From the IMG/VR virus record IMGVR_UViG_3300020469_000178, positions 1-29,380 of that record: a stretch of DNA of 29,380 nt. One strand, written 5' to 3'. Under the pieces are notes generated by a model, which was not told the DNA's origin, did no database searches, and saw nothing but the letters and a program-made list of their open reading frames with translations. Positions within the stretch are counted from its first letter, which is position 1; every line of letters begins with the position of its first letter. This document shows, piece by piece, positions 10,998 through 20,219 of the stretch. Made by a program: the position numbers and the translations under genes. Source of the DNA: a virus.

Positions 10998-11009
10998 GGA
11001 ATGACTAAA

Positions 11010-12323
11010 ATGCAATCTTTTGATACTTTAATCGAAAAGTGGTCTCCAGTACTAAACGAAGAAAGTGCTGGTTCAATCAAAGACCATCAACGTAAAGCTG
11101 TTACAGCTTGTGTTCTTGAGAACCAAGAACGAGCAATGGCAGAGCAAAGACTCCATGAAAATGGTTTCATTAATGAAGACGCTGCTGCTAACAACACATC
11201 ATCACAATCACGATGGGATCCAGTATTGATCTCATTAGTAAGACGTGCAATGCCTAACTTGATGGCGTATGACGTATGTGGTGTACAACCAATGACTGGC
11301 CCAACTGGTCTTATCTTCGCTATGAAGTCAAGATTTGACGGTGGTTCAACATCAAACACTGAAGCTTTGTTTTCAGAAGCTAAGAATGGCGTATCAGGTG
11401 ACGGTTCAACCAAACCTGCTGATCCATCTGGTTTTGACGGCGTAGACTCTGGAGACTCACGAGCTACTGATCTTGCTGCGAGTGGAATGTCAACTGAAGC
11501 TGCTGAAGCTTTAGGAACTGGAGGTACTGGTGGAGATTTCGCTGAAATGGGATTCACCATTGAGAAGTCAACTGTTACCGCAAAGTCACGTGCTTTGAAG
11601 GCAGAATACTCTCTAGAACTCGCTCAAGACTTGAAAGCTATCCACGGTTTGGACGCAGAGACAGAGTTGGCGAACATCTTATCAACTGAGATCCTCGCGG
11701 AAATCAACCGAGAAGTAGTACGTACAATCAACTCTCAGGCAAAGACTGGAGCACAACAATCTAACGTAACTAAGAAAGGTATTTTTGACCTATCTTCAGA
11801 TGCGGACGGACGATGGTCAGCTGAGAAGTTCAAGGGTCTAGTAATTCAGTTAGATAGAGAAGCTAACGTAATTGCTAAAGAGACACGTAGAGGAAAGGGT
11901 AACATTGTTGTTTGTTCTTCTGACGTTGCTACCGCTCTTGCTGCTTCTGGAATGTTAGACTACTCACCCAATATGTCAACTTCATTGCAGATAGATGACA
12001 CAGGTAGTACTTTCGCTGGAACATTGAACGGAAGAATGAAAGTGTACATCGATCCATACGCAACTACAGATTACATCACTGTAGGATATAAGGGAACTAA
12101 CGCATATGACGCTGGTATTTTCTACTGCCCATATGTACCCTTACAGATGGTAAAAGCTGTAGGTGAGAATGACTTCCAACCACGTATCGGGTTCAAGACT
12201 CGTTATGGTATGGTATCTAACCCATTCGTAGGGCCAACACCTTCAGACAACTTGGCTGCTGCTAAGAGCAACCAATACTACAGAATCTTCAGAGTGGACA
12301 ACATTTTGAACGCTTCTTCATAA
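11010..12323 (+). CDS. gp23: Major capsid protein gp23-like
   Basis: A 437-residue major head protein. Signature segments include LIEKWSPVLN, HQRKAVTACVLENQERAM, SRWDPVLISLVRRAMPNLMAYDVCGVQPMTGPTGLIFAM and the C-terminal KAVGENDFQPRIGFKTRYGMVSNPF. It is smaller than T4 gp23 (521), so surface insertions are probably reduced. The leader before the SRWDPV core contains LHE (residues 48-50) and INE (54-56), both fitting gp21 cleavage. Maturation probably removes about the first 56 residues. I chose ATG 11010 because the AAGGA at 10996-11000 is then 9 bases away; ATG 11001 would touch it. Codon use is visibly less A/T-biased than in neighbours, as expected for the most abundant protein. Confidence 0.97.
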   Translation: MQSFDTLIEKWSPVLNEESAGSIKDHQRKAVTACVLENQERAMAEQRLHENGFINEDAAANNTSSQSRWDPVLISLVRRAMPNLMAYDVCGVQPMTGPTGLIFAMKSRFDGGSTSNTEALFSEAKNGVSGDGSTKPADPSGFDGVDSGDSRATDLAASGMSTEAAEALGTGGTGGDFAEMGFTIEKSTVTAKSRALKAEYSLELAQDLKAIHGLDAETELANILSTEILAEINREVVRTINSQAKTGAQQSNVTKKGIFDLSSDADGRWSAEKFKGLVIQLDREANVIAKETRRGKGNIVVCSSDVATALAASGMLDYSPNMSTSLQIDDTGSTFAGTLNGRMKVYIDPYATTDYITVGYKGTNAYDAGIFYCPYVPLQMVKAVGENDFQPRIGFKTRYGMVSNPFVGPTPSDNLAAAKSNQYYRIFRVDNILNASS

Positions 12324-12350: not shown

Positions 12351-12377
12351 AGGGGAGACTTAGGTCTCCCTTTTTTT
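12351..12377 (+). terminator. Rho-independent terminator after gp23
   Basis: GGGAGAC (12353-12359), loop TTAG (12360-12363), GTCTCCC (12364-12370), then seven T residues. This is a textbook intrinsic terminator that ends the capsid transcript and separates it from the following riboswitch-peptide cassette. The last T is also the first base of the next late promoter. Confidence 0.92.
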
Positions 12378-12384
12378 ATAAATA
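12377..12384 (+). promoter_or_regulatory. T4-type late promoter of riboswitch-peptide cassette
   Basis: An exact TATAAATA starts on the last T of the gp23 terminator. The predicted transcript start, a few bases downstream, lies almost at the 5' edge of the first aptamer-like element at about 12389. The cassette therefore appears to be transcribed as a separate late RNA. Confidence 0.8.
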
Positions 12385-12388
12385 ATAG

Positions 12389-12447
12389 TCCGTTCATTTA
12401 TATTTTTCATATAAACGGAAGTAGTCTTTAGACGAAGGAACGCATCT
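12389..12447 (+). promoter_or_regulatory. glnA-type glutamine riboswitch aptamer, copy 1
   Basis: The element carries the conserved words of the glnA/Downstream-peptide glutamine aptamer: CGTTCA, ACGGAAGTAG and CGAAGGAACGC. Three helices are visible. P1 is CGTTC (12391-12395) with GAACG (12438-12442). P2 is TTTATAT (12397-12403) with ATATAAA (12409-12415). P3 is GTC (12424-12426) with GAC (12431-12433). The conserved words lie in the joining regions, as in known members, while P2 and P3 differ fully from copy 2 but keep pairing. That is covariation within the window. Published members bind L-glutamine and often occur in tandem. Assignment is from recalled consensus, so a covariance-model search would settle it. 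Confidence 0.87.
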
Positions 12448-12500
12448 TCGTTCATCTCGAAAGAGACGGAAGTAGGTGATTTTACCGAAGGAACGCATCT
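12448..12500 (+). promoter_or_regulatory. glnA-type glutamine riboswitch aptamer, copy 2
   Basis: The second copy follows directly. P1 is CGTTC (12449-12453) with GAACG (12491-12495). P2 is TCTC (12455-12458), a GAAA tetraloop, and GAGA (12463-12466). P3 is GGT (12475-12477) with ACC (12484-12486). The conserved words GACGGAAGTAGG and CGAAGGAACGCATCT are the same as in copy 1. The CATCT at its 3' edge (12496-12500) could pair with GGATG (12517-12521), which overlaps the Shine-Dalgarno of the peptide gene. That gives a possible way for ligand binding to control translation; this last point is inference. Confidence 0.88.
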
Positions 12501-12523
12501 AACTTTTAACTAAGGAGGATGTC

Positions 12524-12691
12524 ATGGCTACATACTATAGAGGTGTCAATATCCAAAACCAACCCACCGAGAAAAGGGCTAAGCAATTGTCTGGTCTTTA
12601 TCGTGGCGTGTCTTGGAAAATTGAAGATCTAAAGCAGTCATTGAAGCAACCACGAGAGCGAGTCTATCGTGGTGTAAAATGGACTGCCTAA
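12524..12691 (+). CDS. Riboswitch-controlled small YRGV-repeat peptide (DUF4278-like)
   Basis: A 55-residue basic peptide. It contains three spaced copies of a Tyr-Arg-Gly-Val core: YYRGVNI (4-10), LYRGVSWKI (25-33) and VYRGVKW (48-53). This motif is the hallmark of the short DUF4278-type peptides found in cyanobacteria and their phages, whose function is unknown to me. A nearly perfect ribosome site, TAAGGAGG, ends 5 bases before the ATG, so initiation should be strong unless blocked. The gene has its own late promoter, two glutamine aptamer-like elements in its leader and a terminator behind it. This fits the Downstream-peptide arrangement, in which glutamine aptamers precede very short ORFs. 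A role in nitrogen status or host glutamine metabolism is inference. Confidence 0.88.
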   Translation: MATYYRGVNIQNQPTEKRAKQLSGLYRGVSWKIEDLKQSLKQPRERVYRGVKWTA

Positions 12692-12706
12692 TATAGGTAA
12701 GAATGG

Positions 12707-12733
12707 AAGGGGTTCGAAAGAGCCCCTTTTTTT
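12707..12733 (+). terminator. Rho-independent terminator after peptide gene
   Basis: GGGGTTC (12709-12715), GAAA tetraloop, GAGCCCC (12720-12726) with one T-G pair, then seven T residues; flanking A and T residues extend the stem. It closes the riboswitch-peptide cassette 15 bases after its stop. Confidence 0.92.
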
Positions 12734-12747
12734 ATATGTATTTTTTG

Positions 12748-12755
12748 TATAAATA
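12748..12755 (+). promoter_or_regulatory. T4-type late promoter (TATAAATA)
   Basis: An exact TATAAATA lies between the terminator and the tail-tube-like gene, 22 bases before its ATG. It restarts late transcription after the isolated peptide cassette. Confidence 0.83.
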
Positions 12756-12777: not shown

Positions 12778-13302
12778 ATGCCAGTACAAACCACCACAGG
12801 ATTATTAACAAATACGTTAACTGACAACAAAGGTTTTTTACAACCCACAGGGTTTCGTATTGTTATAAACAAAGGGTATTACTCCAACCTACAATATTTT
12901 GCACAATCAGTTATACACCCAGGCGCAAGCGTAAATCCAGTAGAATTACCTATAAGAAAGGTGACTACGGTTCCTTTAGCTGGAGATAAAATAACATATT
13001 CAGAATTAGAACTCACCTTGATTTTAGATGAGGATATGACTGGTTATAAAGAAATGCAGGCTTGGTTGGAAAGAACTATTGATAATAACACCAGAGGTGT
13101 CATGGAAACTCCAGTTTCTTCCATCTATTCAGATGTGACTGTAGTTGTATTATCAAGTCAAAATAATGAGACTGTAAAAATAAAATATCACGACTGTATT
13201 CCTACAGCTCTCAGTTCAATTGATTTAAACGCTACCACAGGTGACGTTACATATCTAACATTTAATGCTACATTTAGATTTGCAAAATTTGAAATAATTT
13301 AG
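12778..13302 (+). CDS. Tail-tube-family protein (gp3-like by position)
   Basis: A 174-residue protein with the same overall pattern as gp19: N-terminal QPTGFRIVINKG, VIHPGASVNPVELPIRK, VPLAGDKITYSELELTLILDEDM, YKEMQAWLERTI and a C-terminal TYLTFNATFRFAKFEI. The tube-like strand-helix order suggests a paralogue of the tail tube subunit. In marine T4-like phages the protein at this place, between gene 23 and uvsY, is usually annotated as tail completion and sheath stabiliser gp3. T4 gp3 has about the same length (176). I see tube-fold resemblance and synteny. The exact role (terminator at the tube top or baseplate-side tube initiator) is not decided. AGAGG lies 6 bases before the ATG. Confidence 0.72.
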   Translation: MPVQTTTGLLTNTLTDNKGFLQPTGFRIVINKGYYSNLQYFAQSVIHPGASVNPVELPIRKVTTVPLAGDKITYSELELTLILDEDMTGYKEMQAWLERTIDNNTRGVMETPVSSIYSDVTVVVLSSQNNETVKIKYHDCIPTALSSIDLNATTGDVTYLTFNATFRFAKFEII

Positions 13303-15789: not shown

Positions 15790-15951
15790 ATGAAGCAACA
15801 GACCAAAAAAACTGTCAAGTCTCCTTGTATAGGCGTTTGTTTGCTTAGTGAAAATGTTTGTCTTGGTTGTCATCGGACAGCTGAAGAAATTACAAATTGG
15901 ATGTACATGACTGACAAAGAAAAGTTAAAAACACTGAAAAGAATTAAATAA
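15790..15951 (+). CDS. Short cysteine-rich DUF1289-like protein
   Basis: A 53-residue ORF not overlapping any other gene. It contains SPCIGVC (residues 11-17), then CLGCHRTAEEITNW (24-37) and MTDKEKLKTLKRI. The spacing Cys-x3-Cys, Cys-x2-Cys followed by R-T-x-E-E-I-x-x-W matches DUF1289 proteins, small cysteine-rich proteins mainly known from proteobacteria. The four Cys (13, 17, 24, 27) could hold a metal or an Fe-S cluster. An in-frame TAA just upstream makes ATG 15790 the first start, but no Shine-Dalgarno is visible (TTTAAAAAAATATG). The leader 15708-15789 contains a possible -10 (TATTAT near 15742) with no good -35. The stop is followed five bases later by the gp55 promoter. Confidence 0.8.
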   Translation: MKQQTKKTVKSPCIGVCLLSENVCLGCHRTAEEITNWMYMTDKEKLKTLKRIK

Positions 15952-16030: not shown

Positions 16031-16624
16031 ATGGCCACGGCAGCATCTAAAAGACCACATTACGTGAACAACAAACAATTTAGTCAGGCGGTAGTAGACT
16101 ATGTTTTACACTTGAGAGAATGTGAAGAAAAGGATTTACCAAAACCTATAGTTCCTAACTATATTGCGGAATGTTTCCTAAAAATATGTGAAGGTCTTTC
16201 TCACAAGGCCAACTTCGTTCGCTATACTTATAGAGAAGAGATGGTTATGGATGCCGTTGAGAATTGTTTAAAAGCAATAAATAGGTTTGATCCAGAGGCT
16301 GCAACCAGAACAGGAAATCTAAATGCGTTCGCATACTTCACCCAGATTTCTTGGTACGCATTTTTACGAAGAATTCAGAATGAGAAAAGACAACAAGATA
16401 TTAAGATGAAATATATTTCAGAAGCTGCGATTGAAGATTTCCTAGTTAATGGTCAAGACATTGACGGTCATATACATACACAACCGTTTGTCGATGTTCT
16501 TAGACAGAGAATAGATTTAGTTAAAGACGCTGATACCCATTTCAAACATTACGCAAAAGAAGAAAAGAAAAGAAAAAGAAGAACTGTAAAGGTTGATTCT
16601 GATTTGTCGGATTATTTAGAATAA
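16031..16624 (+). CDS. gp55: Late-transcription sigma factor gp55-like
   Basis: A 197-residue, divergent sigma-70-family protein, near the size of T4 gp55 (185). The region-2-like core shows FVRYTYREEMVMDAVENCLKAINRFDPE (63-90) and NAFAYFTQISWYAFLRRIQNEKRQQ (98-122), the core-RNA-polymerase-binding and -10-melting helices. It directs RNA polymerase to TATAAATA boxes such as those found here at 345, 5055, 9038, 12377 and 12748. The C-terminus after a Lys/Arg stretch is VDSDLSDYLE, which fits a short acidic-hydrophobic sliding-clamp-binding tail as known for T4 gp55. It is transcribed from a host-type promoter, as expected for a gene needed before late expression. Confidence 0.93.
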   Translation: MATAASKRPHYVNNKQFSQAVVDYVLHLRECEEKDLPKPIVPNYIAECFLKICEGLSHKANFVRYTYREEMVMDAVENCLKAINRFDPEAATRTGNLNAFAYFTQISWYAFLRRIQNEKRQQDIKMKYISEAAIEDFLVNGQDIDGHIHTQPFVDVLRQRIDLVKDADTHFKHYAKEEKKRKRRTVKVDSDLSDYLE

Positions 16625-19484: not shown

Positions 19485-19513
19485 TTTACATTTCTTGTGG
19501 ACTAGTGTATAAT
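19485..19513 (+). promoter_or_regulatory. Sigma-70 promoter of the clamp gene
   Basis: TTTACA (19485-19490), 17 bp, TATAAT (19508-19513). Its -35 side (CTTTACATTTCTTGT) is repeated at the gp43 promoter, and its -10 side (19503-19521) is repeated at the gp55 promoter. An ATG inside TATAATG at 19512 opens a longer frame but cannot be the start of a transcript from this promoter. Confidence 0.88.
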
Positions 19514-19541
19514 GTGTAACAAATTAATAAGGAATTATATT

Positions 19542-20219
19542 ATGGAACTCTCAGAAAGAACTATCAACGTACTTAAAAACTACGCTACGATAAACCCCAA
19601 CATTGTTTTCAATGAAGGGAATACAATCAAAACAATGGCTGTCGCACGTAATGTTGTGTCTAGTGCTGCTGTCGAAGAAAACTTCCCAAGGACTTTTGGG
19701 ATTTATGATCTCAATGAATTTTTAAGTGCATTGAGTCTTGTTAAGAATCCAAGTATGACTTTTGGTGATGACTACTTGACTGTAAACGATGGATCAGGAT
19801 TATCGGCTATCAAATACTTTTATTCAGATCCCGACATGTTAACCGCACCCAACAAAGATATTACCATGCCAGAAGCTGAAGTAAAGTTCACATTAACCCA
19901 AGAAACTTTAGGTCAACTGAAAAGAGCGTCTTCTGCTTTGGGTCATAATGAAATAACTATATCTCCGTCTGGGGGATCAATAAAATTGACTGTGGGTGAC
20001 AATTCTGACTCCACCTCAAATGAATTTTCAATCGAAGTAGATGGAAATTATCCAGATGATGTTGACTTCAAATTTGTAATTAATGTGAATAATCTCAAAG
20101 TTATAAATGAAACATTTGAGGTTTCTGTTTCTAGTAAACTTATAAGTAATTTCACAAGTTTACATTCTGACATACAATATTTTGTCGCTTTAGAAAAAAC
20201 ATCAACCTACGGAGTATAA
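19542..20219 (+). CDS. gp45: Sliding clamp gp45-like
   Basis: A 225-residue protein, near identical in length to T4 gp45 (228). Recognised parts are MELSERTINVLKNYATINPN, the RNVVSSAAVEENFPRTFGIYDLNEFLSALSL segment and GDDYLTVNDG. The C-terminus SDIQYFVALEKTSTYG is typical of the trimeric clamp. It tethers the polymerase gp43 to DNA and activates late promoters through gp55. ATG 19542 is chosen because AAGGA (19529-19533) lies 8 bases upstream. The longer version starting at 19512 would begin within the -10 box. Confidence 0.95.
   Translation: MELSERTINVLKNYATINPNIVFNEGNTIKTMAVARNVVSSAAVEENFPRTFGIYDLNEFLSALSLVKNPSMTFGDDYLTVNDGSGLSAIKYFYSDPDMLTAPNKDITMPEAEVKFTLTQETLGQLKRASSALGHNEITISPSGGSIKLTVGDNSDSTSNEFSIEVDGNYPDDVDFKFVINVNNLKVINETFEVSVSSKLISNFTSLHSDIQYFVALEKTSTYGV

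Follow-up and report, generated by a model that had tools for sequence, protein, structure and literature searches.

Between the major capsid and tail-tube genes of a T4-like phage lies what is probably an autonomous late unit, in which a tandem glutamine switch would govern a DUF4278 peptide that may act on nitrogen assimilation. The window (the whole stretch of DNA analysed) is a 29.4-kb fragment of this phage from a virus collection, and no close phage isolate was found for it at the DNA or protein level. It encodes portal, protease, scaffold, gp23, tail genes, UvsY/UvsW and gp55, together with SbcCD, sliding clamp, clamp loader, RegA and DNA polymerase. Our analysis supports the interpretation given in the initial annotation, which had described a closed, glutamine-controlled cassette. 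The 454 nt between the end of gp23 (12323) and the start of the gp19-like tail-tube gene (12778) hold, in order, a terminator, a late promoter, two aptamers, a Shine-Dalgarno sequence, a 55-aa ORF, a terminator and the next late promoter. The features of the cassette and its surroundings are as follows.

11001..12323, plus strand: gene 23, major capsid protein, upstream neighbour (Pfam Gp23, E 1.6e-143)
12351..12377, plus strand: intrinsic terminator closing the gp23 transcript (stem 12351-12372 and T tract); its T-run enters the late promoter
12377..12384, plus strand: T4-type late promoter TATAAATA of the cassette (from sequence)
12389..12446, plus strand: glutamine riboswitch aptamer copy 1 (RF01739, 58.1 bits, E 1.5e-10)
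12447..12499, plus strand: glutamine riboswitch aptamer copy 2 (RF01739, 60.9 bits, E 2.5e-11)
12495..12522, plus strand: predicted sequestering hairpin hiding the Shine-Dalgarno sequence (MFE and centroid fold; tail/RBS complementarity over loci)
12512..12518, plus strand: Shine-Dalgarno sequence AAGGAGG (from sequence)
12524..12691, plus strand: 55-aa DUF4278 protein with three YRG boxes (PF14105, 33.2 bits, cut-off 25.3, residues 1-52)
12705..12735, plus strand: intrinsic terminator closing the cassette (11-pair stem, 12705-12730, and T tract)
12748..12755, plus strand: late promoter TATAAATA of the tail-tube gene (from sequence)
12778..13302, plus strand: gp19-like tail tube, downstream neighbour (Pfam Phage_T4_gp19, 28.5 bits; PHROG 45)
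16031..16624, plus strand: gp55-type late sigma factor, which would drive the cassette promoter (PHROG 234, E 4e-51)
19512..20219, plus strand: gp45-type sliding clamp, a late-transcription partner in T4 (PHROG 223)

The capsid and tail-tube flanks, the strong Shine-Dalgarno sequence and the two flanking terminators are thus all as first described. The space between gp23 and the tail-tube gene is only 80-95 nt in the annotated relatives Phage C48C1, Mosig, Melnitz and S-8S56; in P-HM1, S-BM3 and HTVC008M it is filled by other small ORFs.

The aptamers had been proposed to belong to the glnA/Downstream-peptide group. The glnA assignment stands: two abutting RF01739 copies are the sole Rfam matches in the window, each well over the gathering score of 35, and neither copy failed the covariance-model search. 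The Downstream-peptide assignment falls, because RF01704 has no match in the window at its gathering score. A 23-nt blastn match in a roseophage was likewise rejected as a riboswitch, as that record has no RF01739 match. From their sequence, the two aptamers would sense L-glutamine. A change of ligand behind a conserved fold is very improbable, given that every conserved word of RF01739 is intact in both copies and that they score as high as cellular members. Aptamer 2 ends 25 nt before an ORF with a strong Shine-Dalgarno sequence, and the complementarity between aptamer tail and ribosome-binding site (RBS) is specific to the locus, which places the pair in the leader of that ORF.

The ORF carries YRGV at three places, as the initial annotation had reported, and the profile comparison that it had suggested identifies the product as DUF4278. 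This family alone covers the protein, in which no other scores above its cut-off, and 15 of 15 YRG relatives match it; 14 relatives from viral, SAR86, Porticoccaceae and cyanobacterial loci do so alongside the peptide, with E values of up to 0.01. Identity is 47-49% to two other viral peptides, 37% to the Porticoccaceae, 33% to the SAR86 and 22-30% to the cyanobacterial ones; M1 and the three YRG boxes are invariant in the alignment and Y26 is nearly so. Against contigs whose proteins are 95-96% and 73% identical, dN is 0.024-0.18, dS 0.12-0.80 and dN/dS close to 0.2, and we therefore take the ORF to be a real protein. An overlapping 37-aa frame (12519-12632) starts from another ATG, which lies within the Shine-Dalgarno region; the codon substitution pattern favours the DUF4278 frame over it. 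Distant matches are to PHROGs 545 and 5049, both phage families of unknown function, and there is no solved structure among the peptide's relatives. AlphaFold2 models three β-hairpins (mean pLDDT 72.7, pTM 0.28), a model too uncertain to be suited to a fold search.

Transcription of the cassette would be late. TATAAATA occurs nine times on the plus strand of the window against 2.4 expected and once on the minus strand, and the late sigma factor encoded in the same window bears out the earlier claim of a gp55-type promoter at 12377; the two together are the components of a T4-type late transcription unit. Terminator-like stems are also in excess (four found in the region, 0.5 expected). Going by the spacing of late starts in T4, the first base of the transcript would be at about 12388-12390, within about three bases of aptamer 1. 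Moreover, the association of late promoter and riboswitch is not peculiar to this phage: of 207 viral riboswitch loci, among the matches listed, 48 have TATAAATA no more than 120 nt upstream against 4.0 expected, a twelve-fold enrichment that is absent from cellular loci (5 of 118 against 2.7 expected).

In the predicted free fold, nucleotides 12495-12500 (GCAUCU) pair with 12517-12522 (GGAUGU) and 12503-12505 with 12512-12514, while the inter-aptamer linker joins the 3′ strand of copy 1 P1 to the 5′ strand of copy 2 P1. The folding energy of the leader is unremarkable (z −1.49) and a single fold proves little, so we examined the pairing over many loci. Riboswitch loci were gathered by pattern from viral contigs and bacterial genomes, the next ORF was read, and each aptamer tail was paired with its own ribosome-binding region and with those of other loci. 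Own pairing proved stronger in viral loci (−7.22 kcal against −5.78 across loci, z −12.4, among the matches listed) and in genome loci (z −8.7), and in neither set did any of 2,000 permutations equal it. With one viral locus kept per dissimilar payload (n=74, among the matches listed), which lowers the kinship among loci while leaving some of it in place, z is still −10.8, and an exact 4-nt complement is present in 48 of these 74 representatives against 16.5 expected. The complement occurs in compensating versions (CAUC/GAUG, CACU/AGUG, CACC/GGUG and CAAU/AUUG), and beyond its last G the P1 strand is mostly unpaired with the RBS. In the first viral scan the tail had to be CATC, whereas the other scans left it free; tail frequency does not drive the test.

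This conserved, locus-specific complementarity upholds the proposal that the aptamers control the peptide ORF, and we are confident that the tandem riboswitch does so at the level of translation. Because the complementarity is locus-specific, control is most likely translational and ON with glutamine, a direction that we regard as likely. We propose that RNA polymerase with the gp55-type factor starts at the 12377 promoter, so that, judging from the promoter consensus, the messenger would have hardly any sequence ahead of aptamer 1. Without glutamine, the CAUCU tail of aptamer 2 would pair with the ribosome-binding site and leave the peptide untranslated, and the linker between the aptamers would self-pair, as in the predicted fold, so that neither P1 helix could form. 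When glutamine is high, both aptamers would fold, P1 of copy 2 would reclaim the base of the hairpin, and the freed Shine-Dalgarno sequence would allow the peptide to be made. Two aptamers in tandem should sharpen this response.

The opposite sign, in which glutamine shuts the peptide off so that it is made under nitrogen starvation and raises nitrogen uptake for virions, is unlikely. The sequestering helix shares only one base with P1, so that, at the level of secondary structure, exclusion between it and the bound aptamer is not obvious and either sign is allowed. OFF control would also suit the ammonium transporter and glutamate synthase-like genes (read from their ORFs) that the riboswitch precedes in SAR11, SAR116 and SAR86. 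Against this, the predicted free fold is the sequestered state, and a review (PMC6316151) reports that nitrogen excess raises DUF4278 genes behind this aptamer.

The peptide would most likely bind and restrain a component of host nitrogen assimilation late in infection, be it glutamine synthetase (GS), PII or a partner. This target comes from the regulation and company of the DUF4278 family, and by that analogy we assign the peptide, plausibly if tentatively, an effector role in nitrogen assimilation. According to the same review (PMC6316151), IF17 has DUF4278 as its N-terminal portion and can inhibit GS without it. A peptide that consists of DUF4278 only therefore need not inhibit GS, which would be one option, binding of PII or another nitrogen protein being the alternative. 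The cassette suggests that the phage reads host nitrogen supply while virions are built. It is improbable that the peptide is instead a small virion or assembly protein whose riboswitch only fits dose to amino-acid supply, even though the late promoter and the site between capsid and tail-tube genes would suit one: most relatives of the phage have no such peptide, several unrelated payloads use the same slot, and the three-box peptide with its tandem riboswitch is also found among ordinary cellular genes in SAR86 and Porticoccaceae.

How regular is this arrangement? Viral contigs with a gp23 97, 86 and 70% identical to that of the window carry the cassette at this position too, between gp23 and the tail-tube gene. 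The initial annotation had called for a survey of T4-like phages after gene 23, and the cassette does occur there, as a sporadic insert rather than a regular neighbour. In an unbiased sample chosen by gp23 it is absent from all 67 close relatives, and in a distant gp23 lineage the riboswitch is found in 4 of 65 by pattern and 3 of 20 by Rfam; a regular link to gene 23 is thereby rejected, and we conclude from these counts that the site behind gp23 is a hot spot in which the cassette turns up only occasionally. The freshwater-2 and manA RNAs also lie behind gp23 in the distant T4-like lineage; one contig (L595:3741-4392) has glutamine riboswitch, manA and freshwater-2 in series, and RNAs of these kinds are seen behind gp23 in L577, L583, L584, L588, L590, L593, L600, L613 and L619. 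In another contig (L544:4599-4720, minus strand) an opposite-strand glutamine riboswitch lies about 900 nt behind gp23.

Such sporadic occurrence would fit a selfish or relic cassette of host origin, transcribed and inconsequential for the phage, as would a slot that takes many inserts (gp23/tail-tube gap 80 to 1400 nt in relatives), the freshwater-2 and manA RNAs among them. We nonetheless consider such a relic quite unlikely, as the peptide is under purifying selection and the promoter, terminators and RBS pairing are kept in relatives at 70% capsid identity.

Marine viral contigs commonly carry glutamine riboswitches; we found at least 212 such loci. At least 39 of these are tandem, and at least 51 follow gp23 directly and have payloads of at least five types. 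Over all the loci, payloads include at least 27 of YRG type, at least 39 NPFYP-type, at least 66 W..YC-type, at least 15 GTSGY, at least 11 RPRxxKN and others; the genes upstream of the riboswitch at other loci are mixed, with no single neighbour. The proteins of 28-80 aa behind viral glutamine riboswitches (loci L010-L128 and L306-L446) belong to several unrelated families, most of which have no Pfam or PHROG match among the matches listed. It is possible, if doubtful, that marine phages of many lineages share modular glutamine-sensing late cassettes, often behind the capsid gene, whose interchangeable micro-proteins (YRG/DUF4278, NPFYP, W..YC, GTSGY and RPRxxKN types) tune host nitrogen assimilation at glutamine surplus during virion assembly, in heterotrophic and cyanobacterial hosts.

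Cellular counterparts bear on the host. In cyanobacterial genomes, YRG proteins mostly follow the riboswitch. SAR86 and Porticoccaceae each have a three-box YRG peptide behind a tandem riboswitch, flanked by ordinary chromosomal genes, with an integrase gene about 2 kb from the Porticoccaceae copy. Relatives of the SAR86 single cell have the riboswitch in 49 of 107 cases and the YRG peptide in 8 of 107; for the family of the Porticoccaceae MAG the counts are 4 and 9 of 112. Some SAR86 genomes contain up to seven RF01739 copies, and in three (L296, L453 and L455) the riboswitch precedes what reads as a type II glutamine synthetase. The window has a DUF1289 gene (15790-15951), a domain found only in phages of Proteobacteria among phage records with a named host, and its gp23 is nearest to that of phage C48C1, followed by SAR11 and OM43 phages. 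Peptide identities, DUF1289 and gp23 relatives together favour a proteobacterial host, which these sequences make more likely than a cyanobacterium.

Glutamine riboswitches in cyanophages, Melnitz and Mosig were already known, as was their pairing with DUF4278 in cyanobacteria. In the literature searched there is no mention of DUF4278 together with phage. A phage tandem cassette uniting glutamine riboswitch and DUF4278 behind a late promoter, its gammaproteobacterial counterpart and several unrelated riboswitch-controlled micro-proteins in viruses appear undescribed in that literature. In the cassette one would have a direct case, open to experiment, in which a virus times a gene to host nitrogen state through a metabolite-sensing RNA during virion building. 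It extends the riboswitch-DUF4278 pairing beyond cyanobacteria to phages and marine gammaproteobacteria, and the survey catalogues riboswitch-controlled micro-proteins that lack annotation in abundant ocean phages, as a starting point for finding their targets.

The closest cyanobacterial systems are outlined in the review (PMC6316151), which states that cyanobacterial glutamine aptamers mainly precede DUF4278 genes and that a riboswitch raises expression of the DUF4278 gene PMM1846 when nitrogen is in excess. Like the type 1 glutamine riboswitch/DUF4278 system (gifB/IF17) described there, our cassette combines RF01739 with the same downstream domain. Unlike it, the unit is phage-borne, with tandem aptamers, a T4-type late promoter and its own terminators, and its peptide is the DUF4278 part alone, 22-30% identical to the cyanobacterial ones; the C-terminal IF7-like inhibitory part of IF17 is absent from the 55-aa protein. 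With the type 2 (RF01704) picocyanobacterial PMM1846 system, as described in that review, it shares a short DUF4278 protein under glutamine control, and differs from it in having aptamers of glnA type with no RF01704 match. A small DUF4278 gene, PHM1_181, is present in the isolated cyanophage P-HM1 (GU071101, 157493-157618), where no glutamine riboswitch was matched.

RF01739 aptamers also occur in the T4-like marine phages Melnitz, Mosig and S-CREM1, where, unlike those of the window, they are single and lie elsewhere in the genome; neither Melnitz nor Mosig has a DUF4278 match. In Melnitz (MZ577097), which like Mosig is in culture, the riboswitch (46398-46446) is followed on the plus strand by an unannotated 32-aa ORF, MTLYQQWCYLKAQKEYRRRQKILMYFRIRLKG, at about 46469-46567 (L304:1070-1168), with a Shine-Dalgarno sequence and a tail/RBS complement. 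The published view is that the Melnitz switch controls tmRNA; the tmRNA sits upstream of the switch. In Mosig (MT647606, 92025-92250, minus strand; L305) it lies directly ahead of Mosig_00116, whose 51-aa product belongs to the RPRxxKN class; members of this class also follow viral riboswitches beside gp23. Compared by description, the peptide resembles PirA (PMC8092223), a nitrogen-regulated protein that is likewise small and similar in length; PirA, unlike it, is under NtcA control (PMC8092223). The SAR86 (G013) and Porticoccaceae (G012) units have the same tandem RF01739, three YRG boxes and YRGVSW end as our cassette, and differ from it in being cellular, with a longer leader of about 60 nt and a peptide 33-37% identical to that of the phage.
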